Virus record (IMG/VR): IMGVR_UViG_3300030451_001515 | Coordinates: 1 to 26,036 of that record | Length of the DNA stretch: 26,036 nt | Reading direction: 5' to 3' (one strand) | From: a virus | Part shown: positions 1-26,036 of the stretch, piece by piece | Layout of the letters: every line of letters begins with the position of its first letter | Numbering within the stretch: the first letter of the stretch is position 1 | The notes under the pieces: model-generated | The model's database searches: none | Told to the model about the DNA's origin: nothing | What the model saw: the letters and a program-made list of their open reading frames with translations, nothing else | Position numbers and translations under genes: made by a program

Positions 1-177
1 TTCAAATTTATTAGCATCGTTAAACTTAGCATAAAACTCTACAATTACAGGCTTTGTTTGATCATCACCAAAAGCTTGCTTTTCATTTATTTTACTATCA
101 AAATTATCATCTGTAATAAACTCTTGACCAAATGAATTAAAAGTAATTAATAGTAAAATTATATTTAAGTATTTCAT
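1..177 (-). CDS. Exported thioredoxin-like protein without CxxC (partial, C-terminus beyond window)
   Basis: The reading frame begins with ATG at 177-175 and stays open to base 1, giving the first 59 residues only. Residues 1-18 form a signal peptide ending in SFGQ, a common cleavage context in Flavobacteriia, so the protein should leave the cytoplasm. The mature part follows the thioredoxin pattern: an N-terminal helix (NFDSKI), then KPVIVEFYAKF, which matches the strand before the active site. Where thioredoxins have WCGPCK this protein has FNDANK, so both redox cysteines are replaced by Asn while the following Lys is kept. It may therefore be a redox-dead binding or chaperone protein rather than a disulfide reductase. 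The start lies one base after the TAA of the preceding gene, so it belongs to the same operon. The fold call rests on 59 residues and is an inference; the gene itself is well supported. Confidence 0.7.
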   Translation of the reverse strand, partial: MKYLNIILLLITFNSFGQEFITDDNFDSKINEKQAFGDDQTKPVIVEFYAKFNDANKFE

Positions 178-178
178 A

Positions 179-466
179 TTATCTACCTCTTTGTTGTAGC
201 TCGTACAAGCGTTCGTCGATTTTATCTATAGTTTCTTTTATTTCCTCTACATCCTCTTGAGTATCCATAATTGTTTGACGAATTAATTCATCTTTTAAAT
301 CATATTCAACTCTGTCAATAACAGGTACCGGTAGTTCTTTAGCAAGGGCTATATCAGCTTGTAATGCAAAATAAAGCGTTGCTATTGAAACTGCTCCTCC
401 AATAATTAGTCCTATTGTTTTTAAATCTAATGTTACTTTGGTATCTTCACCTATTTGTTTAGCCAT
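179..466 (-). CDS. Small one-TM coiled-coil protein, holin- or spanin-like
   Basis: This 95-residue protein has a short charged N-terminus, one hydrophobic segment at about residues 17-37 (LKTIGLIIGGAVSIATLYFA) and a highly charged, heptad-like helix from about residue 57 to the end (VEEIKETIDKIDERLYELQQ). There is no signal-peptidase site, so it should stay anchored in the inner membrane with a long soluble coil. Small proteins of this shape beside phage late genes are usually holins or inner-membrane spanins, but nothing in the sequence decides between these. It starts one base after the stop of the outer-membrane-type gene and ends one base before the exported thioredoxin-like gene, so all three are probably translated from one message. 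The exact function is unknown. Confidence 0.75.
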   Translation of the reverse strand: MAKQIGEDTKVTLDLKTIGLIIGGAVSIATLYFALQADIALAKELPVPVIDRVEYDLKDELIRQTIMDTQEDVEEIKETIDKIDERLYELQQRGR

Positions 467-467
467 T

Positions 468-1640
468 TTATTTTAATGTTATATTTAATCCTACAGATCC
501 GTTATATATTTTACTATCCCAAAACTTAGTGTATTCGCCTTCTACAAATACTCCAATGCTTTTGCTTAATTTCCATCCAAATACTATACCTGCTTGATAA
601 TCCTCCCATTGCTCTAACTCTGAATCTTGTCTTAGTCCACCAAGTCCCCAGTTGTTTCTATTTAAATAACTAAAATCAACGTCGCCTTCTACATACTTAT
701 GATATGGTAATAAGTAAGAACCATAAGCATGAAGCCAAAAGTTATTTTTATAATGGTAAAAGTCAAAACCGACCACAGGTGATACAACACCAAACGGATC
801 TAATAAATCCCATTGTTCATTATTATATCGATTAATTAATGATTCAAATATAGTATCACGGAACTGTAAATCGGTATAAGCTACTTCGTTTCCTTCCGGA
901 TCATACCAATAATAATCATATACATCTTCACCATCAATATTAATAGTAACCCATTGATCAGTATAACCGTAGTTATAACCTAACTGATACCAGTAATTAA
1001 CTGGCCAACCATTATCATCTGTTTCATTTAACCATATTTCAATTGGATTATAGCCATAAGCTCTTTCATGTGTACGGTATATTGCACCTGCTGATAAACT
1101 AAACTTTTTACCAATAGGTAATTTAGCTCTAACCTCCGCTGATTTATATTTAAAATCAACTTTACCTTGTGCTCTACTTTCTAATTTAACCATGTGGTAT
1201 TTACCACTATGCTTTACAAAGTATCTATGGTTTTTATATATCTCATCTCTTGATCTTTCTTTTTCAGTATGAAATACATATTCTAAACCTTTTACAGGTG
1301 AATTAGTAGCAGATAAACCTACATTGCTTTCTGTTCCATCGTAGTATTGTTTACCTTTTACTTCATAATCAAACCTAGCTAATTTACGTATACCAAAACC
1401 ATATCTATAATCATAGTCATAATAATCTGTACCATCAACTACAACAGGTGGTGTATATAAATTACCATCAGGATTTGTTCTTACAAAGTAATCTTTTGGA
1501 TTTTCTTTTGGATTTTCTATGTCACCCGCTACATATATAGTCCCATATTTTAAGAAATCTTTATATATTTTTTCAAAAATATTTTGTGAATTTAGTGTAA
1601 AACTTACTAAAAATAGTAGTAATGTAAGTAATTGCTTCAT
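468..1640 (-). CDS. Phage-encoded probable outer-membrane beta-barrel protein
   Basis: The 390-residue product opens with a signal peptide (residues 1-19, MKQLLTLLLFLVSFTLNSQ) of flavobacterial style. The rest is rich in Tyr, Trp, Asp and Asn, with alternating polar/aromatic stretches that look like transmembrane beta strands, for example FSLSAGAIYRTH, NFWLHAYGSYLL, AGIVFGWKL and the closing NGSVGLNITLK. The last strand ends at the C-terminus, as expected for a barrel handled by the BAM machinery, although the final residue is Lys rather than Phe. I do not recognise a named family. A barrel made late in infection could alter the host surface, for example to block re-adsorption as proposed for lambda Lom, or take part in lysis; both are inferences. 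Its ATG overlaps the stop of a 29-codon ORF (TAATG). Confidence 0.7.
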   Translation of the reverse strand: MKQLLTLLLFLVSFTLNSQNIFEKIYKDFLKYGTIYVAGDIENPKENPKDYFVRTNPDGNLYTPPVVVDGTDYYDYDYRYGFGIRKLARFDYEVKGKQYYDGTESNVGLSATNSPVKGLEYVFHTEKERSRDEIYKNHRYFVKHSGKYHMVKLESRAQGKVDFKYKSAEVRAKLPIGKKFSLSAGAIYRTHERAYGYNPIEIWLNETDDNGWPVNYWYQLGYNYGYTDQWVTINIDGEDVYDYYWYDPEGNEVAYTDLQFRDTIFESLINRYNNEQWDLLDPFGVVSPVVGFDFYHYKNNFWLHAYGSYLLPYHKYVEGDVDFSYLNRNNWGLGGLRQDSELEQWEDYQAGIVFGWKLSKSIGVFVEGEYTKFWDSKIYNGSVGLNITLK

Positions 1641-1729
1641 TATTTATAATTTTTAAACATTAATTTATATAATAACTTATTCCAAGCCTCTTGTATTTTG
1701 TCTATTAATTTTTTTACTTTTTCTTTCAT
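1640..1729 (-). CDS. 29-residue cationic amphipathic peptide ORF
   Basis: This short ORF starts at ATG 1729-1727, overlaps the 3' end of the lipoprotein gene by 53 bp in another frame, and ends with a TAA whose last base is the first base of the next gene's ATG. The translation carries nine Lys, and hydrophobic residues fall at positions 5, 8, 9, 12, 15, 16, 19, 20, 23 and 24 (core KVKKLIDKIQEAWNKLLYKL), a clean amphipathic-helix spacing. It fills exactly the otherwise untranslated gap between its neighbours, and an AT-rich leader without Shine-Dalgarno box precedes it, like the other genes here. Such helices bind membranes, and disruptin-type phage lysis peptides have this character. With only 29 codons in an A-rich context, chance is possible, so confidence is modest. 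Confidence 0.35.
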   Translation of the reverse strand: MKEKVKKLIDKIQEAWNKLLYKLMFKNYK

Positions 1730-2000
1730 TTTTTACTTTTATTATATAGTTAATAACAACCCCGCCTAACCATGTTGCTAGTAGATCTTTAGCATCAAAT
1801 CGACCATAGTCAGCATAATCGTACAGCTCTTTTGCAAATCCTATGGCAAAAGCAGCGCTTGTAGGAGTTAAATCCATTTTATGTCCTACTACTTCTGTAG
1901 CTGCTCCAGCTGCAAAATGATAATATTTATCAGTTCCTATTGATTGCGTACTAGCACAACCCACAGTAACCACCGCAAAGAGGACAAGTATCTTTTTCAC
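1677..2000 (-). CDS. YfiM/DUF2279-like lipoprotein
   Basis: The 107-residue product starts at a GTG. An in-frame TGA lies immediately upstream, so this is the only start that keeps the signal sequence. Residues 1-14 form a short lipoprotein signal with a lipobox-like TVGC, Cys15 being the predicted lipidated residue. The mature part has DKYYHF (residues 24-29), a Gly-rich stretch, GFAKELYD (54-61) and GRFDAKDLLA (66-75). The spacing of DKxxHF, KExxD and DxxD resembles the YfiM/DUF2279 lipoprotein family, whose function I cannot state with confidence. A hydrophobic stretch at about residues 75-87 is followed by a very basic tail. It is the first gene after the giant virion protein and opens the envelope-directed cassette. 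A role in lysis or envelope modification is inferred from position only. Confidence 0.7.
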   Translation of the reverse strand: MKKILVLFAVVTVGCASTQSIGTDKYYHFAAGAATEVVGHKMDLTPTSAAFAIGFAKELYDYADYGRFDAKDLLATWLGGVVINYIIKVKNERKSKKINRQNTRGLE

Positions 2001-2005
2001 TCATG

Positions 2006-5000
2006 TTAAGGTTTTTTATAATACTGTATTTTACCATCTGGTCTTTCTATTTGTATATAATCAACACCTAATTCACCTGATGGTTTACCTGAATTAGGTC
2101 CTGTTAATGGTATTCGTTTTGTAAAGCCCATGTTTTTAAACTTTCGAACATCATTTTTAAATTTATCTTTTAATTTTTCGTCTTCAGCTTCTTCTTTTTT
2201 AATAGTACTTTCTCTACCCCAATACGGAAGACCTACGTTCCAACCAGACCAGCCAAGCAATAAAGCAACTGTTTGCCATGTTTTAGTTTCTTCATCAAAA
2301 GCTTGACCTATATTCATAGCTTTTCTAAGTACACGATCTAGTGGTAAATTTGTAGTAGCAGATATTATTTGAGACACTGCTAAATAAGCGGGATTATCTA
2401 AACTCCAGCCTCGCCTTTTTATTTCGTCCATGTTCCAGTCAAATGTTTTAGCTGCTGTTCTTAGTTTACGAACTTTAGAATCTAGCACTGGAGAAATATC
2501 AAACACATTCCATACTGTATCTCTATATTGTGTAGTTTTCTTTTCTGATTCTTCAGCTACACGAGCCGCGACATTTTTAACTGTAGATACTATAGCTCCA
2601 CCAAAACCTAATCCAAACAATAACGAGTCTAGCATACCGTTTGCAATACTAGCAGCGTTTGCTTTTTCTTTTTCTTCTGGCTCATCTTCAAATGCTAAAG
2701 CAAATAAAGCTTGTTGTAATCCATTAAACACTAGGTTTTGAACACCTACATAATATATTATGCTAGATAAATTACTTAAATCACTTTCACGCTGAGTCAT
2801 GCCAGGTTTTGTACGTCTATTATAAAGATCTTGTATAGACTTTTTAGTCTTTCTGTTATACTGCATTGTTACGTTTTGAAACGAAAGTATAACACGACCA
2901 GCAAAACTAGCTTGTTGTTGTGATATTCTAGCTGGATTACTTGACTGTTGTGTTTCTTCTGCTATTGCATAAAAATCATCAAATGCTTTTGATTCAGCTT
3001 CTGCTTCTGTATATAACTTACCAGTTTTAGGATTAACTCTGTTTTGTAATGATTTTTTTCTATTTATAAAAAACGTAGCACCACCAGTAGCAATTGCTAC
3101 ACTATCCATAACTCTTGTAATAGCAAATCCTTTATCAAGTATGTAATTAATCATACCTTTTATACCACCTTGCCTACCAGCATCTGCAAGTTCTGCTTCA
3201 TTTACATTTATTTTTAATCCATCACGTCTGTTTACAAGATAATCAGAGTTCATTAGTTTTAATACTGTAGGAAAATAATCTTTGCTTGTAAAAGCTTTTG
3301 CAGCATTATAAACATTATTATCACCCCAGTTTATAAAGTTAACATTAGATATTAACTGTAGTAAACCAGATCTCATGTTTAAGAACATAACCGCACCAAC
3401 AGAACTATTTAACCAGTCCATCATTTCATTTACAATACGAGCACCGCTTCCAACAAATACTGGTCTATTACTACCAGACTTCATTCTACGTAATGAATCA
3501 ACTAATGATTCTCTAAATTTACTTCCGTATAAAGCCTCTATTTTATTTAAGTTTTCAGGACTAAATATAATATCAGAGTTTTCATTAAATTCAGTCATTA
3601 ATTCTTTTCTATACGTAGTATCTAATCCTCTTAATATATCTGTTGTTATATCACCTGCTAACCAATTTTTAGTAGGCGCTGGATATTCTTTATTTTTTTG
3701 AACAAGCATTACATTGTCAGCAAAAGGCAGTAATTCTAAATCACTTTCAACAGCTGATACTAATGCATCTATATCTCTTTTTGACATGCCTGGTATTTCC
3801 ATACCTTGCTTGTTCCACATGTACACTCTAATAGCTTGTGATTTTGTGTATGGCCCAACACCTATTTCTTGCATTAATGGATTTTTACCATTTTTACTTT
3901 TTAATGTTGGAAAAGCATCTTTTAATGCAGCAAAATCATTTGCTACTGTCACTTTAGCAGATAGTAATTCTTGCTCTGCTTTATTATAAGGGTCCATTAA
4001 ATTTTCTTTAATAAACTGAGCGTGCTTATTACCTTGCTTACCTTTACCCATAAAAGCATACATTAGACCCATAAAATCATCAGCTGATGGTGTAATAGTA
4101 AATTGATTTATAAATCTTTTAAATATACCTTTATCTTTTTGCTTACCTTCTAACCTTGCTCTAGCATCAGAATATCTTTTAAATGATTCTTTACCTGTAA
4201 CTTCTTCTATTTGATTATTAAACTCATTGTTTAATCTAGTTGTTTTATCAGCTATTGCTTGTTGTACATCTGATTTAACATCTATTTGATCTAAAACGTT
4301 TTTAACTTGTTGCACGTTTAATAGTGAATCATCTGCAAAATAAAAATCATTATAACCTTCTGAAGCTTTTTCTAAGAACCAATCAGCTTTTGCTTGTGGA
4401 TCACCATTACCTAAACCTGTTATATTAGATAAAGGTATGTTTAAACCAATATTTTTAAGAAATGTTTGTATAGCAGTAGCAGAAGCACCTGGTCTAGCTG
4501 TAACTACAAATATATCTTTAGGTCCAAATTTAGCTTGTTTTTTTCTAGCTTCACCAACCATAGGTCCTTCTAATGTAGATATATCTACGTTTTCAAAATT
4601 ACTAAAATCAAACTCTGCACCATTAGCAGTTAATTCTTCTGCTTGTACAGCAAATTCACCTGCGGTTAATTCACCAGTTGTACCGTCTGGCATTGTGTAT
4701 TTAACTTTTTCTTTTGTCAAAGCTAACGTGTCGTCAAAATCAAAAGCGCTTAATCCTTTTTCTTTTTTATCAACCTTTTGCGCGTTAACTCTAACATCTT
4801 GTGAATTTACTAATGTTTGTTTTATTTCAGTAGAATTTTGTTTTTTACTAACAATATCTGACGCAATATTTGCTGTTTTATTTCTTGCTTGATCTTCTAG
4901 TTTTAATATATCTTGAACAGTTGGTGTTTGCATTAACTTTTCAAAAGACTTTGGACTGTCTAAATTAAAATTAGATTTTTCACCTGTAACTTTTATATTA

Positions 5001-8000
5001 GCTGGTACAAAAGCTAAAGTTGGAGTTATATTGCCGTTTGCATCTGTTCCAGATCTTTTAAATCTAAAAACCATATCTACAGTACCTTCAAGTTTAGGAA
5101 CTGGTAAATTTAATGGATTTTCACCCATATAAAACAAGCCTTGGCCTTGTATATTTATGTAATAAACAGGTGGTTGTTTTTTATTATATAATTCAGCTAT
5201 AACATCAGCACTTACTGTTTCTTTAGTAGTAGTCGCTTTTTGTAATCCAGCTTTTTGAGCTTGCATCCAAGCTGTTTTTGGTATTTTTTTAGAACTAGTT
5301 GTTAAATCAACACCTTGTTTTTTAATATCTTTAGCCCAAGCATTTAATTTAGGTTTAGATTTTTTAACAATGTTGTCCATAACTGATTGAAGCTCGGGAC
5401 TATATTTGTCATAGGTAAATTTAAAATCACCTGTATTAAAATCATAAGTACCATTTACACTGCTATACTGAGCATTGTCTAATTTAGATTCACCTAAAAA
5501 TTCAAAACCATTAAGTTCAAATGCAAAATCAAAGTTTCTATATCTACCTTTTTCACTAGGTTTTTTTAGTATAACTTTTAAACCTGGAAACTTACTTTCT
5601 AATTTTATTGCATTGTTAATAATTAGTTGTTCAAAAGCTTTATCTCTTTTTAAACCTTCTGTTTCCATTACTTTTTCAACAAGATATTCAGTATCTAAAG
5701 TATCATTTTGTAAACTTTCTTCTGTTATTTCTTGTTCAAAAGTATTTTGTAAATTATCTGCTTCTTTTTTAGTTAAACCTAAAGCTTTTCTTATACTATC
5801 AATACCAGCCTTTATAGATTTTACAATATCTTTTGTTTTACTATAAGTGTCTTTAATTATATTTAAACCGCTTTTTATAGCTTTAGCTACTTGACTAACA
5901 GGCAGTCCAGCATATAAAGTACCAGCTTGATCTTGTATAAAAGAGTCTACGTTATCTATTGCGCTTTGTAATGTTTGTTCTATTGTGTCTTCTACAACAT
6001 CTAAAGAAGTGTCTTCTAAGTTTCTTTTATCTAAATCAGATGCCACTTCGTCCATAAATTGTTCTGCGGTTAAATTAGAGTTTTTTAACTCTAACTTACC
6101 TTGTAAATCTTGCATAAAAGAATCATTAGCTTTTAACTCTTCTATTTGTTCAACTGCAATTCCTTCGCCTAATAAACTATATAATGATTGTTGTCTTTTT
6201 TCACTAGATTTAAAATAATCTCTAACGCTTTGAAGTTGATCTTCTGTTATTGCTGGTATATTAAATACAGGTTTTTTAAAATCAGTACGTTTACCGTTTT
6301 CAACTTTAGTAGTAGGCACTGTTCCTGTTTGAGTTATATTAAATAACTTACCAAATCTACGTTTTAAAGTTGCTATAGGTATAGTTCTAATAAAATCTTT
6401 AGTTACTAATCTATCAACATTTTCATTGTACTCAGTGCTGTTCCACTTACCTAATTGATTTTTTATTAACTTTCTATATTCTTTGCTTTTTGTTTTACTA
6501 GATATTTCTTGAGCTATTGATTTTGGAGATATTCCAATACTAGCAATACCTCTATCTATATCTTGTTGAATCATAGCTGTTTGATCAGCTCTTGTTTCAG
6601 GTGTAATTTTTTCAGAAATAACTTCTAATGATGCTGGATAAACTTTTGGTCTTTGTGGTATTTCTTGTCTAGTGTCAGTTTCAACTTGAGTGTCAGCTAC
6701 TTGTCTAGCGCCTTCAGTATCTAAGCTAACACCTCTTTGACCTATACTAGCTTCAGAATATATTTCTTGCATTTTAGGCTTTAAAGAATTTGTTACATAT
6801 GTACTCCAAGTAACACCTTTTGCAGGATCAAAATTATTTATAATTGGACCAAGCCTAGAATTAATAGCTTCTAATACTTTGTTTCTTGGTATTGTACCTG
6901 CCTCAGTACTAAATCTAACAGCTTCTAAGTATAGGTTTTGATTACTGTCTATTAAAGCTTGTTGAGCTTGATTTTGATCAGCTTTACTAGCATTAGGATT
7001 TTTTATTGTTTCAAGCAATGTTTCATTTATACCATCAGCAGAATCATCTACTTCTACGTCTGTTTCTTCTACAGTTTCGCCTTCTTGTCTAGTAGGTAAA
7101 ATACTCATACCTACTGTTTCAGATTTTTCTTTTTCAAAAGCAGCTTTTTCTTCAGTAACTATTTCACCTAATCTATCGTTTATTTCATTTACTCTAGTCG
7201 CGTCATCTTTTGTTAAAGCAGAATCATCAACCTCTTTTATTTTTTGCTGTAATTTATTTTTTTCAATTAACAAATTAGATGCTTCAACATTTTCTTGTAA
7301 TCCTAAAGGTTTTAACTGTTGAGTAGCTTTTGTTATGTTGTTAAAATTATCCTGTATATTATCAGCTTGTTCTTGGTTTATTTTACCTAACTCTAAATCT
7401 TTTTTTATTTGCTGGTCTATAATTATATTAGCATTTGGTACTTGAGCTATTTTTAATTCTTCTAAACTACTGATAGGTGTAGATAAATCTACAGGTTTAC
7501 TATAAACTTCTGTAAGATTATTTACACTAAAATTAGGATTTATTTCTGCTATATTTTTATTAATTTTATTTATAGCTACAGCTTCTTGAATACCTTGTTT
7601 TACTTGCATTACATTTATAGGTCCAGAATATGTGGCACCACCACCTAAGCCTTGTAAAAACGCGTCGTTAACACCTTCAAACGGATCTTTACCGTTTATC
7701 ATGTTTTGTGTTATTTGAGTAGCAACTTCTTCTATACCTTCACCTAACGCACCTGCTGGAGCTCCTGCTTTTTTAAGCGCTTGCTCATACATTTCAATTA
7801 ATCCGTTTCTAAATATTTTTGCTCCTTGTTCTTTTCCTTCTTTTAATAATATATCTTTATATACTTTACCTAAAGTTCCACTACCAATAGCAGAAAAAAC
7901 TGTTTCAGCACCTGCTAAGCCTATTGCTTTAACTGTTAAATCAAACTCGCTAGCGCCTGGATTTTCTTCTCTCAATCTTTCAAGTTCAGGTCCTAAAAAC

Positions 8001-8926
8001 ATAGGTGTTGAACCTGCTGCTAATCTTGGTATACTTGTACTAGCTCCACCAGCCATCATACCTATGCTTACAGGCGCACTTTCAGCTAAACCACTACCTA
8101 ATTGTTTAAAACCATCCGACCAATTACCTTTTTTAAAGTTTTCATAAATACCTTGAGTATCATAATTTTCATTATTCCAAATAGCTTGTTCTTTACCTAA
8201 TTTTTCACTTTCTTTTTGATAAAATTCTAATAAAGGATTTGATATATTAAAATCTTCTTTAAATTTTTTAGAACTAGCCTCAAATTCTTTAGGTAAAACA
8301 CCTGCTTTTACTAATAAATTTTGAGGTAAAGAAAACATATCATAAAAACTTTCACCTACACTAAACATCATTTCACCTAATGTTGTACTTCCTTTTGCTA
8401 AGTCTACAGTAAATAGTTTTTCTAAATAAGATTTTTTAGCTATTTTATCTTTTTCTATTTGCTCTTTATCTTGTACGCTTCTTAAAGCTGTATTATGATC
8501 TTCAATTGCTTTATTTAACTCAATTAAAGTATCGTTATACATTTTAATTCTATTAGGAGCATCCATGGCATCCATTTCCATATCACCTCCGGATATTTGA
8601 ATTAAATCAGTTTCAAGTTTATTTATATTGTTTTGAGAATTTTTAAAATCAAACTCCTCTACATCTATTTCAGGTTCTATAGGTTCTGTAGCTGAAGCAA
8701 TAGTTAAAGGTATAGGTTCGTCTTCTTTTGGTTTTTCTTCTTGTTCTATTGGTTCAGTAGCAGATTCAAAAGTTAATTTTATAGGTTTTTCTTCTACAAC
8801 TTCTTCAACTTCCTCTTCAACTTGTGGTTGAGGGTTTTTCTTCTTCCATTCCTCTACTTTAGCATATATCTCTTCTTGAGATAAATTCTGATCCTGTAAA
8901 GAAATAACGTATTCTTGTAGAGTCAT
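2006..8926 (-). CDS. Giant multidomain virion ('polyvalent') protein with sigma-like, nuclease-like and HAD domains
   Basis: This 2306-residue protein is the largest in the window, and its ATG directly abuts the stop of the preceding gene. Residues 1-100 are acidic and contain a duplicated element ending in SATEPIE (47-61 and 71-84). Residues 275-440 are Ala/Gly-rich helices typical of ejected internal proteins. Residues about 652-725 resemble sigma-70 region 2, with FDPAKGVTWSTY at 699-710. Residues about 1105-1310 hold a PD-(D/E)XK-like core (D1133, E1146-S-K1148). Residues about 1389-1560 form a HAD domain with all four motifs: DFDDT (1396-1400), VVTARP (1474-1479), K1513 and DD (1532-1533). 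Residues about 1600-2306 contain hydrophobic segments near 1840-1862, 1925-1955, 2055-2080 and 2098-2118. I infer that it is packaged in the capsid and injected with the DNA, acting on host nucleic acids or nucleotides. No RNA-polymerase DxDGD motif was found. The domain calls are motif-based. Confidence 0.8.
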   Translation of the reverse strand: MTLQEYVISLQDQNLSQEEIYAKVEEWKKKNPQPQVEEEVEEVVEEKPIKLTFESATEPIEQEEKPKEDEPIPLTIASATEPIEPEIDVEEFDFKNSQNNINKLETDLIQISGGDMEMDAMDAPNRIKMYNDTLIELNKAIEDHNTALRSVQDKEQIEKDKIAKKSYLEKLFTVDLAKGSTTLGEMMFSVGESFYDMFSLPQNLLVKAGVLPKEFEASSKKFKEDFNISNPLLEFYQKESEKLGKEQAIWNNENYDTQGIYENFKKGNWSDGFKQLGSGLAESAPVSIGMMAGGASTSIPRLAAGSTPMFLGPELERLREENPGASEFDLTVKAIGLAGAETVFSAIGSGTLGKVYKDILLKEGKEQGAKIFRNGLIEMYEQALKKAGAPAGALGEGIEEVATQITQNMINGKDPFEGVNDAFLQGLGGGATYSGPINVMQVKQGIQEAVAINKINKNIAEINPNFSVNNLTEVYSKPVDLSTPISSLEELKIAQVPNANIIIDQQIKKDLELGKINQEQADNIQDNFNNITKATQQLKPLGLQENVEASNLLIEKNKLQQKIKEVDDSALTKDDATRVNEINDRLGEIVTEEKAAFEKEKSETVGMSILPTRQEGETVEETDVEVDDSADGINETLLETIKNPNASKADQNQAQQALIDSNQNLYLEAVRFSTEAGTIPRNKVLEAINSRLGPIINNFDPAKGVTWSTYVTNSLKPKMQEIYSEASIGQRGVSLDTEGARQVADTQVETDTRQEIPQRPKVYPASLEVISEKITPETRADQTAMIQQDIDRGIASIGISPKSIAQEISSKTKSKEYRKLIKNQLGKWNSTEYNENVDRLVTKDFIRTIPIATLKRRFGKLFNITQTGTVPTTKVENGKRTDFKKPVFNIPAITEDQLQSVRDYFKSSEKRQQSLYSLLGEGIAVEQIEELKANDSFMQDLQGKLELKNSNLTAEQFMDEVASDLDKRNLEDTSLDVVEDTIEQTLQSAIDNVDSFIQDQAGTLYAGLPVSQVAKAIKSGLNIIKDTYSKTKDIVKSIKAGIDSIRKALGLTKKEADNLQNTFEQEITEESLQNDTLDTEYLVEKVMETEGLKRDKAFEQLIINNAIKLESKFPGLKVILKKPSEKGRYRNFDFAFELNGFEFLGESKLDNAQYSSVNGTYDFNTGDFKFTYDKYSPELQSVMDNIVKKSKPKLNAWAKDIKKQGVDLTTSSKKIPKTAWMQAQKAGLQKATTTKETVSADVIAELYNKKQPPVYYINIQGQGLFYMGENPLNLPVPKLEGTVDMVFRFKRSGTDANGNITPTLAFVPANIKVTGEKSNFNLDSPKSFEKLMQTPTVQDILKLEDQARNKTANIASDIVSKKQNSTEIKQTLVNSQDVRVNAQKVDKKEKGLSAFDFDDTLALTKEKVKYTMPDGTTGELTAGEFAVQAEELTANGAEFDFSNFENVDISTLEGPMVGEARKKQAKFGPKDIFVVTARPGASATAIQTFLKNIGLNIPLSNITGLGNGDPQAKADWFLEKASEGYNDFYFADDSLLNVQQVKNVLDQIDVKSDVQQAIADKTTRLNNEFNNQIEEVTGKESFKRYSDARARLEGKQKDKGIFKRFINQFTITPSADDFMGLMYAFMGKGKQGNKHAQFIKENLMDPYNKAEQELLSAKVTVANDFAALKDAFPTLKSKNGKNPLMQEIGVGPYTKSQAIRVYMWNKQGMEIPGMSKRDIDALVSAVESDLELLPFADNVMLVQKNKEYPAPTKNWLAGDITTDILRGLDTTYRKELMTEFNENSDIIFSPENLNKIEALYGSKFRESLVDSLRRMKSGSNRPVFVGSGARIVNEMMDWLNSSVGAVMFLNMRSGLLQLISNVNFINWGDNNVYNAAKAFTSKDYFPTVLKLMNSDYLVNRRDGLKINVNEAELADAGRQGGIKGMINYILDKGFAITRVMDSVAIATGGATFFINRKKSLQNRVNPKTGKLYTEAEAESKAFDDFYAIAEETQQSSNPARISQQQASFAGRVILSFQNVTMQYNRKTKKSIQDLYNRRTKPGMTQRESDLSNLSSIIYYVGVQNLVFNGLQQALFALAFEDEPEEKEKANAASIANGMLDSLLFGLGFGGAIVSTVKNVAARVAEESEKKTTQYRDTVWNVFDISPVLDSKVRKLRTAAKTFDWNMDEIKRRGWSLDNPAYLAVSQIISATTNLPLDRVLRKAMNIGQAFDEETKTWQTVALLLGWSGWNVGLPYWGRESTIKKEEAEDEKLKDKFKNDVRKFKNMGFTKRIPLTGPNSGKPSGELGVDYIQIERPDGKIQYYKKP

Positions 8927-24431: not shown

Positions 24432-26036
24432 TTAACTTATAATTTTTGATGTCGATCCTTTATTATTATATTTTTTAATACCTAAATCAACAGGCTTTAA
24501 TTCTCTTTTTGTTACAGGCGTGTATCTGTGTTTATTACAAGCCATAAGAGCTAAACCTGAACTGATCGAAGCATCATGAGTTGTTCTGTTGTTTATATTA
24601 AATTTTGCCCAGTCTTCTAATGTTCTTTGAAAATACATATCTCCATATCCAGTTTCTTTTAAACCTACAAAAGTTTCTACATATGTTTCTATTGCTGCAG
24701 CATGAGCTTGTTTAATATCTTCACTAGAATTAGGTATACCACCTATTTCTCTTTCTGTTACAGATAATTTATTTCTTGCCTTATCAGGTCTATTCATTGC
24801 AAAACCTCTATAACCTCTACGCTTAAAATAATACAATAATCTTGGTTTATTATTTTCAGCAAGTATTGGCATACCATAAAATACACAAGCCATTAATACA
24901 TCTTCAAAAAATATTTCAGCTGTTTGTGGTCTTGCTATATACTCTAGAAAAAAGTGATTTGGTGGTGCATTCTCCATACTAAACTTGGTTAAACCATGTA
25001 AAGAGCCGTTAGAACCTCTTTTATCTACTGTACCTGATATATCATATGGGTCACAACCAAAAGCTCCCATATGTTCATTACCTGGATAATTTACACCATT
25101 TTTAATGTATCTTCTATTTTGAACCATTAAATCTGGTATCCAAGTAATGTAAAACCTTCCTTGTTTGTTTGGTATAAAAATAACTTTAGTATCTTGTTTT
25201 CCATCTTCCCACTGAAAATTACCTTGCGTTATATTTATACTGTTTTTTAAATCTTCATTAAAATCTATTTGCTCATATATTTTAGTTAGATTAAATAAAG
25301 ATTGTTTTGATTCGTCTCTAAAAGCATGTTTAGTTGTACGTGGAAACTGTCTATAAAATTCATTTAAAGCATCTTGATCTTCTTTTAATCCTTCTACTTC
25401 ATTTTCCCAGTACTCTACAACACCTTGTTTTATTTTTATTCCGTGAGGATCTTTAACTTCTTTTTTCGGTGTATCGAATACAGGTAATCCATAAGAATCA
25501 ATGTATCCTTCGTAATTCCATTCCATAGGTATGAACAAACTATATAATCCTGAGCGAGTCTGTCCATTGCTGTTTCTTTTTGTGACGTCTGAGTCATCGT
25601 ATAATTTTTTAAATTCTTTACCTCCTTTATCTAAAGCATTTGATGTTGAACCCATCATACACTTTCCAATAATTCTACTACCTAACCTTAACGTGGTCTT
25701 CGTGACCCTCCAGTTGTTGAGGATGTTGTTCGGCTTCTCCCATTTACCGGACTCGTCATGAACGAGGAGTTTGAGTTTCTCACCGTCATAGGAGTTATCA
25801 CCGGTGTTCTTCCAATCGATGGTGGTGTCAAGTCCCTGTAATTCGTCCTGTAAGGTTTCATCGGCGGAGGCGGTGAGCTTACGACGGGTGTACTTGGTTG
25901 CTGGGACACGGTAGGCAAGTTCGGTCTTTGGACGGTCCATTCCGTCCTGGGTCGGCTTGAAAAAGAAGGGATAATTAACTGATATGGGTACCACCTTATC
26001 TGTGAACATCTTCTTTGCATCAGGACCGGACTTGGA
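24432..26036 (-). CDS. terL: Terminase large subunit (partial, N-terminus beyond window)
   Basis: The frame is open to the right edge: nine more codons precede the first in-window ATG (26009-26007), reading SKSGPDAKK, so the true start lies outside. Counting from that Met, a Walker-B-like LLVHDES sits at residues 71-77 and an ATPase coupling motif MMGSTSN at 118-124; Walker A must lie upstream. The RNase-H-like nuclease half shows the expected acidic residues: GCDPYD (Asp320 and Asp323), AENN (Glu385) and HDAS (Asp479). The enzyme cuts and translocates DNA into the prohead through the portal. NGQTRSGLYSLFIP and EGYIDSYGLP match my memory of crAss-like terminases. The codons upstream of base 25680 are strikingly GC-rich compared with the rest of the gene. 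Confidence 0.9.
   Translation of the reverse strand, partial: SKSGPDAKKMFTDKVVPISVNYPFFFKPTQDGMDRPKTELAYRVPATKYTRRKLTASADETLQDELQGLDTTIDWKNTGDNSYDGEKLKLLVHDESGKWEKPNNILNNWRVTKTTLRLGSRIIGKCMMGSTSNALDKGGKEFKKLYDDSDVTKRNSNGQTRSGLYSLFIPMEWNYEGYIDSYGLPVFDTPKKEVKDPHGIKIKQGVVEYWENEVEGLKEDQDALNEFYRQFPRTTKHAFRDESKQSLFNLTKIYEQIDFNEDLKNSINITQGNFQWEDGKQDTKVIFIPNKQGRFYITWIPDLMVQNRRYIKNGVNYPGNEHMGAFGCDPYDISGTVDKRGSNGSLHGLTKFSMENAPPNHFFLEYIARPQTAEIFFEDVLMACVFYGMPILAENNKPRLLYYFKRRGYRGFAMNRPDKARNKLSVTEREIGGIPNSSEDIKQAHAAAIETYVETFVGLKETGYGDMYFQRTLEDWAKFNINNRTTHDASISSGLALMACNKHRYTPVTKRELKPVDLGIKKYNNKGSTSKIIS
25681..26036 (-). other. GC-rich patch inside the terminase gene
   Basis: Direct counting gives 179 G+C in 356 bases (50%) here against 117 in the adjoining 360 bases of the same gene (about 32%). 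Codons in the patch prefer ACC, CTC, CGT, GAC and TCC; just past residue 110 they switch to AGA, ATT, TCA, TTA and AAT. The reading frame and family motifs continue across the junction. A second frame (25688-26020) is open through most of the patch only because stop codons are rare in this composition. Confidence 0.85.

Follow-up and report, generated by a model that had tools for sequence, protein, structure and literature searches.

Five envelope-directed late genes of a marine virus as a probable part of its lysis module

The locus

The window, i.e. the whole stretch of DNA analysed here, is a 26,036-base virus fragment, one end of which (position 1) falls inside the gene of a thioredoxin-like protein. 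Its main genes, namely those for the terminase, the portal, virion proteins, a giant 2306-aa protein and then a set of five late genes (positions 1-2000), all lie on the minus strand (table 1). The original prediction described the five as a tightly spaced series coding for a lipoprotein, an amphipathic peptide, a barrel protein, a one-transmembrane (one-TM) coil protein and an exported thioredoxin-like protein, and these frames and their order were recovered, with spacings between -53 and +5 nt. The giant protein has a weak PHROG match only (phrog_26930, 1e-8) and, from its position, is probably a virion or DNA-ejection protein. An Rfam search gave no match. A host from the Bacteroidota, as had been proposed, is very probable, because the cultured phages with related terminases infect Flavobacterium, Cellulophaga, Tenacibaculum and Maribacter.

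Table 1. Features of the window discussed in the text.
Feature	Position	Strand	Remarks
Exported thioredoxin-fold protein (Trx), first 59 residues	1..177	-	gene cut by contig end
coil95, 95-aa one-TM protein	179..466	-	long charged tail, probably helical; i-spanin-like candidate
Outer-membrane beta-barrel (predicted), 390 aa	468..1640	-	signal sequence
AMPH, 29-aa cationic amphipathic peptide	1640..1729	-	sequence MKEKVKKLIDKIQEAWNKLLYKLMFKNYK; one base shared with barrel start
Exported lipoprotein lipo107, 107 aa	1677..2000	-	GTG start; signal then VGC
Giant 2306-aa protein	2006..8926	-	directly upstream of the five-gene set
Terminase large subunit	24432..26036	-	N-terminus lost at other contig end

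All the evidence presented in the following is comparative. The gene families were defined by purpose-built profiles resting on loci that had been found by homology, and therefore the co-occurrence counts are not counts of independent events; the loci themselves are fragments.

The five gene products

The description of the exported protein as thioredoxin-like stands as regards the fold, a complete homologue matching PF00085 (E 4.8e-7), but not as regards the active site, since the CxxC motif is present in none of the 85 complete Trx homologues, which makes a redox role of Trx very unlikely.

For the barrel, an AlphaFold model was obtained with a mean pLDDT of 76.4, and the best PDB folds returned by Foldseek are outer-membrane beta-barrels (NanC, PorB and autotransporter barrels), with TM-scores that are low to moderate; judged by its signal sequence and its predicted fold, the protein is an outer-membrane beta-barrel. 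Its alignment has 44 invariant columns over 45 sequences. A scan of the GTDB genomes (bacteria and archaea) returned 12 barrel relatives; in nine, the same piece of contig also encodes coil95, and in two of the other three the sequence stops within the barrel or shortly after it. An origin of the barrel from a host genome was considered and rejected: all 12 relatives lie in MAG contigs with clashing taxon labels, and most are accompanied by more genes of the phage set. These contigs (L305-L316), labelled Woesearchaeota, Maricaulis, Pelagibacter and Nitrosopelagicus, probably owe their phage-set genes to viral contamination of the MAGs. Among annotated cultured phages no homologue of the barrel, of coil95 or of AMPH was found, the search being insensitive for a peptide as short as the last.

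Hydropathy places a single hydrophobic segment of coil95 within about residues 11-37, and by this measure alone the protein has the one N-terminal TM segment expected of an i-spanin; there is no significant match to the PHROG spanin families (phrog_739, E 0.2), and a PDB sequence search with the coil family gave nothing useful. That coil95 might itself be the holin was suspected because, in the first 160 loci, it was hardly ever seen together with a recognised holin; this was rejected when a holin was found beyond the terminase in all eight relatives examined as full records, and both genes together in loci L193 and L308. The N-terminus of coil95 resembles phrog_20984, a family of one-TM proteins marked by a KWPRGEMGALPDD-like motif (L081:10885-11193; L169:14055-14387; HTVC027P gp15; HTVC121P gp53), which is widespread in viral contigs and directly precedes coil95 in many loci. 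The members from the Pelagibacter phages HTVC027P and HTVC121P share with coil95 the N-terminal TM segment, but differ from it in a KWPRG-type motif and in the tail.

The reading frame of AMPH overlaps the tail of the lipoprotein gene. Its core, WNKLLYKLMFKNYK (given as WNxLLYKLMFKKYK), is nearly invariant; the charge is +6, and the hydrophobic moment is 0.69, compared with 0.35 for shuffled sequences, only 0.15% of which reach so high a value. By the same shuffle measure, a 36-aa variant of AMPH and a 48-aa family are not significantly amphipathic. There is no match in PHROGs. A profile search labelled 35 frames as AMPH, of which 33 come from separate relatives, and the 26 non-overlapping sequences that had not been picked by a pattern gave a pN/pS of 0.17 at a pS of 0.71; a lower pN/pS from pattern-found loci was left out, being biased by the search pattern. 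As judged from these ratios, AMPH is a real gene under purifying selection, and the alternative of a conserved DNA element was rejected, as synonymous sites vary. The same low ratio, together with the existence of homologues in relatives for each of the five genes (for the lipoprotein in fewer of them), indicates that the set is more than a product of chance.

With a DNA search pattern based on the peptide core, at least 117 AMPH loci were found. Among the matches listed, a lysis gene lies within 100 nt of AMPH in 34 of 117, the overlaps being mostly of 1 or 4 nt, and the barrel within 400 nt in 46 of 117, in some with coil95 next to it. An occurrence of AMPH on independent phage backbones was rejected, for seven of the eight records tested have a window-type terminase (66-80% identity); the peptide is therefore documented within one broad lineage only. 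It was not found in the cultured phages elemo, phi19:3, phi38:1, Gundel and MW202828, some of which were covered in part of the genome only. Two more short peptide families, MGKLLVKLGLWMQACWCK... and MWKLTKQYW... (L053:15709-15849 and L008:12003-12236), occur in loci that often have no AMPH, and may replace it.

The lipoprotein is the accessory member of the set. The window protein matches phrog_29588 (E 6.9e-7) and is YfiM/DUF2279-like in style, although the best member of the family scores 17.0 bits against the cut-off of 28.6 for DUF2279/YfiM (PF10043), and the window protein itself has no match there. Family members often have no lipobox, whereas that of the window has the VGC. Most relatives do without lipo107, and many of them carry another small exported protein at the same place.

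Endolysin, holin and gene order in relatives

That no endolysin is to be seen, as the original prediction pointed out, is true of the fragment only, because the fragment stops inside the Trx gene. An M15 endolysin is found in all 24 barrel relatives with at least 4 kb of downstream sequence, where its gene comes after that of Trx at distances of -4 to 1,908 nt, with one outlier at 6.5 kb. It is assigned to the endolysins by both Pfam and PHROGs (PF08291, E 5e-17, 62.3 bits against a cut-off of 23.2; endolysin family phrog_894, E 6e-32), and both zinc motifs (SxHxxGxAxD and WxHxS-like) are kept in 33 of 33 near-complete proteins; a PDB sequence search gave nothing useful for M15. The protein has neither a hydrophobic start nor a signal sequence and should therefore need a holin. 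A holin (phrog_3427, E 3.8e-18), a 3-TM protein of 151-156 aa that reaches 21.3 bits with PF11351 and so stays below the cut-off of 24.8, is encoded upstream of the terminase, on the same strand and about 1.4-8.3 kb away, in each of the eight relatives examined. By extension from the relatives, the window virus would have an M15 endolysin and a holin of its own. The endolysin slot alternates between M15 and Amidase_2 enzymes among relatives, a switching to be expected of a lysis module. Between Trx and the endolysin, L002 (14240-15454) and its relatives have small basic proteins (DUF5872-like, DUF6321), several of them with SPF/SPL motifs near the start.

Members of the set and lysis genes stand together in three loci: (i) in L308, a 64.7-kb MAG contig, the order over positions 5252-8612 is, in a single run, coil95, Trx, barrel, an amphipathic 78-mer, lipo107, M15 and holin, with several overlaps, so that here a lipo107 family member adjoins endolysin and holin; (ii) in L309, it is M15, barrel, coil95, Trx and AMPH; and (iii) in L193, it is coil95, Trx, M15, AMPH and holin. 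The trio of barrel, coil95 and Trx is also found in records of 81-181 kb in which no window-type terminase is detectable. In a 181-kb record, it is preceded by a PG_binding/Amidase_2 endolysin and by a holin-like protein with 2 TM segments. In five other large records, an apparent ribonucleotide reductase precedes the trio or the trio's lipoprotein, and these were counted against a lysis role. A gene for a PAP2-family phosphatase, possibly a lipid-modifying enzyme, stands shortly after the trio in L169 (12829-13476), a 181-kb virus record.

Membership of the five genes in a lysis module is considered likely, because the gene order in relatives puts the set with the M15 endolysin and the holin. 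The set is, as originally described, envelope-directed; it is also conserved and goes together with lysis genes. As for the proposed unconventional lysis system, the lysis part is supported by gene order, but nothing indicates that an endolysin is lacking. The original prediction had also named what would speak against it, i.e. a standard endolysin/holin/spanin set nearby and a scattered occurrence of the five genes: the endolysin and the holin are indeed present in the relatives and no conventional spanin was identified, and barrel, coil95 and Trx stay together, whereas lipo107 and AMPH vary in presence and position between relatives.

Proposed role and alternatives

The reading preferred here, with moderate confidence, is of a marine podovirus of Bacteroidota whose lysis module would rely on a holin and an M15 endolysin and have the five genes as its envelope part, the set serving the outer-membrane step in a spanin- or disruptin-like manner. 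This step is proposed from the predicted locations of the products, the outer membrane being all that is left once holin and endolysin have acted. In detail, the holin would open the inner membrane, the signal-less M15 endolysin would cut the peptidoglycan, and the five envelope products would handle the outer membrane. Within the set, coil95 would have its anchor in the inner membrane and extend its tail into the periplasm, the outer membrane would contain both barrel and lipoprotein, and the redox-dead Trx fold would be a periplasmic binding module between coil95 and the barrel or lipoprotein; AMPH, cytosolic until freed by the holin, would destabilize the outer membrane in the manner of a disruptin. 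By analogy, coil95 may act like a spanin with the lipoprotein or the barrel. The core of AMPH is conserved above what is usual for membrane-active peptides, which hints at a specific partner and was counted against the disruptin-like element of this reading.

The barrel, the coil, the dead Trx and the peptide are unfamiliar families within an otherwise known type of module. Whether they amount to a new outer-membrane lysis device, with barrel, redox-dead Trx and coil95 replacing the o-/i-spanin pair and AMPH representing a new family of disruptin-like peptides, is a tentative and, at present, doubtful proposition.

Another distribution of roles, judged rather unlikely, would have coil95 (or the related phrog_20984 protein) as the i-spanin and a lipoprotein as the o-spanin of a split two-component spanin, with AMPH as a regulator, i.e. 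an antiholin or a regulator of the endolysin, and no membrane disruptor at all. The single N-terminal TM segment and the long charged tail of coil95 agree with it, as does lipo147, a Pro/Asn-rich lipoprotein (L014:13487-13930 and others) which overlaps the start of coil95 by exactly 32 nt in eight loci, elsewhere comes -4 to +6 nt after M15 in many loci, and is itself a candidate o-spanin. However, lipo147 is absent from the window, where the lipoprotein gene is not adjacent to coil95, and the genes stand in reversed order (o- before i-spanin). Also in favour of this reading, in Pelagibacter phages the phrog_20984 relative is encoded near a TM protein or, as in HTVC027P, near an M15 peptidase, and AMPH overlaps the starts and stops of holin or endolysin genes; yet its core stays constant beside differing families of endolysins and holins, which argues against either as the partner.

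Alternatively, barrel, lipoprotein and Trx might merely share a late transcript with the lysis genes and change the surface of the infected cell, blocking a receptor or DNA entry, in the service of envelope protection or superinfection exclusion. Exclusion roles are known for some outer-membrane proteins and lipoproteins encoded by phages (Lc porin, Cor and Llp), and the position of the trio after an apparent ribonucleotide reductase in several large records is in keeping with such a role; a weak similarity to Cor proteins (phrog_1119, E 0.28) shown by the window lipoprotein was given no weight. Against it, the trio or parts of it travel with endolysin, AMPH and holin in L193, L308 and L309, and the invariance of so many barrel positions contrasts with the variability often seen in exclusion genes. 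An exclusion function is, on these grounds, improbable. A mere gathering of late accessory genes without common function downstream of the giant structural gene, as the coming and going of the lipoprotein, exp76 and lipo147 and the shifting positions between relatives might suggest, is very improbable, given that barrel, coil95 and Trx keep together as a block whether or not the record has a window-type terminase and that coil95 so regularly accompanies the barrel in the genome scan.

Relation to known lysis systems

In the preferred reading, a lysis role at the outer membrane, the set would provide small, concrete candidates for this step in phages of the Bacteroidota, which are a major group among the degraders of algal blooms; in many phages from public viromes, gene order links barrel, coil95, Trx and AMPH to holin and endolysin. 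In a survey of 677 tailed phages with Gram-negative hosts, 91 (approx. 13%) had no recognizable spanin, among them Croceibacter and Bacteroides phages (PMC6139136); it has been stated to be an open question whether spanin-less phages use disruptins or other outer-membrane breakers (PMC12819732). A survey of lytic proteins lists Bacteroidetes phages with unimolecular spanins only (PMC12596118).

With the Rz/Rz1 two-component spanins (PMC6139136), the window set has in common a one-TM, long-tailed protein and an exported lipoprotein, encoded with an endolysin; it differs in that the lipoprotein gene is not adjacent to the coil gene, that a beta-barrel, more constantly than the lipoprotein, is present as the outer-membrane partner, and that no spanin family is matched significantly. 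An outer-membrane protein has been considered as a possible o-spanin in the same survey (PMC6139136). AMPH is likened by description to the disruptin of coliphage phiKT (Holt 2022, as summarized in PMC12819732), and may act like it: both are short amphipathic phage peptides, and AMPH, encoded among the lysis genes of relatives and with no signal sequence seen, has by its charge and hydrophobic moment the character of a short cationic amphipathic helix, as looked for in a disruptin. It differs from the phiKT disruptin in its length of 25-29 aa and its nearly invariant core.

The flavobacterial phages with holin/endolysin lysis (PMC8776804) likewise have a signal-less endolysin and a holin, with TM proteins nearby, and the only spanins reported for them are u-spanins, in two phages. 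In contrast, holin and endolysin are split by structural genes in the close relatives of the window, and its lineage adds the barrel, the dead Trx fold, the coil protein and the amphipathic peptide. Enzymes of the M15 or D-Ala-D-Ala-carboxypeptidase type are also present in Caudoviricetes sp. MW202828 and in Flavobacterium elemo phages. In distant relatives of the window, the region holds an M15 or Amidase_2 enzyme and a one-TM protein of 51-64 aa, and in a Flavobacterium elemo phage a similar-looking small protein is encoded directly before the annotated D-alanyl-D-alanine carboxypeptidase.
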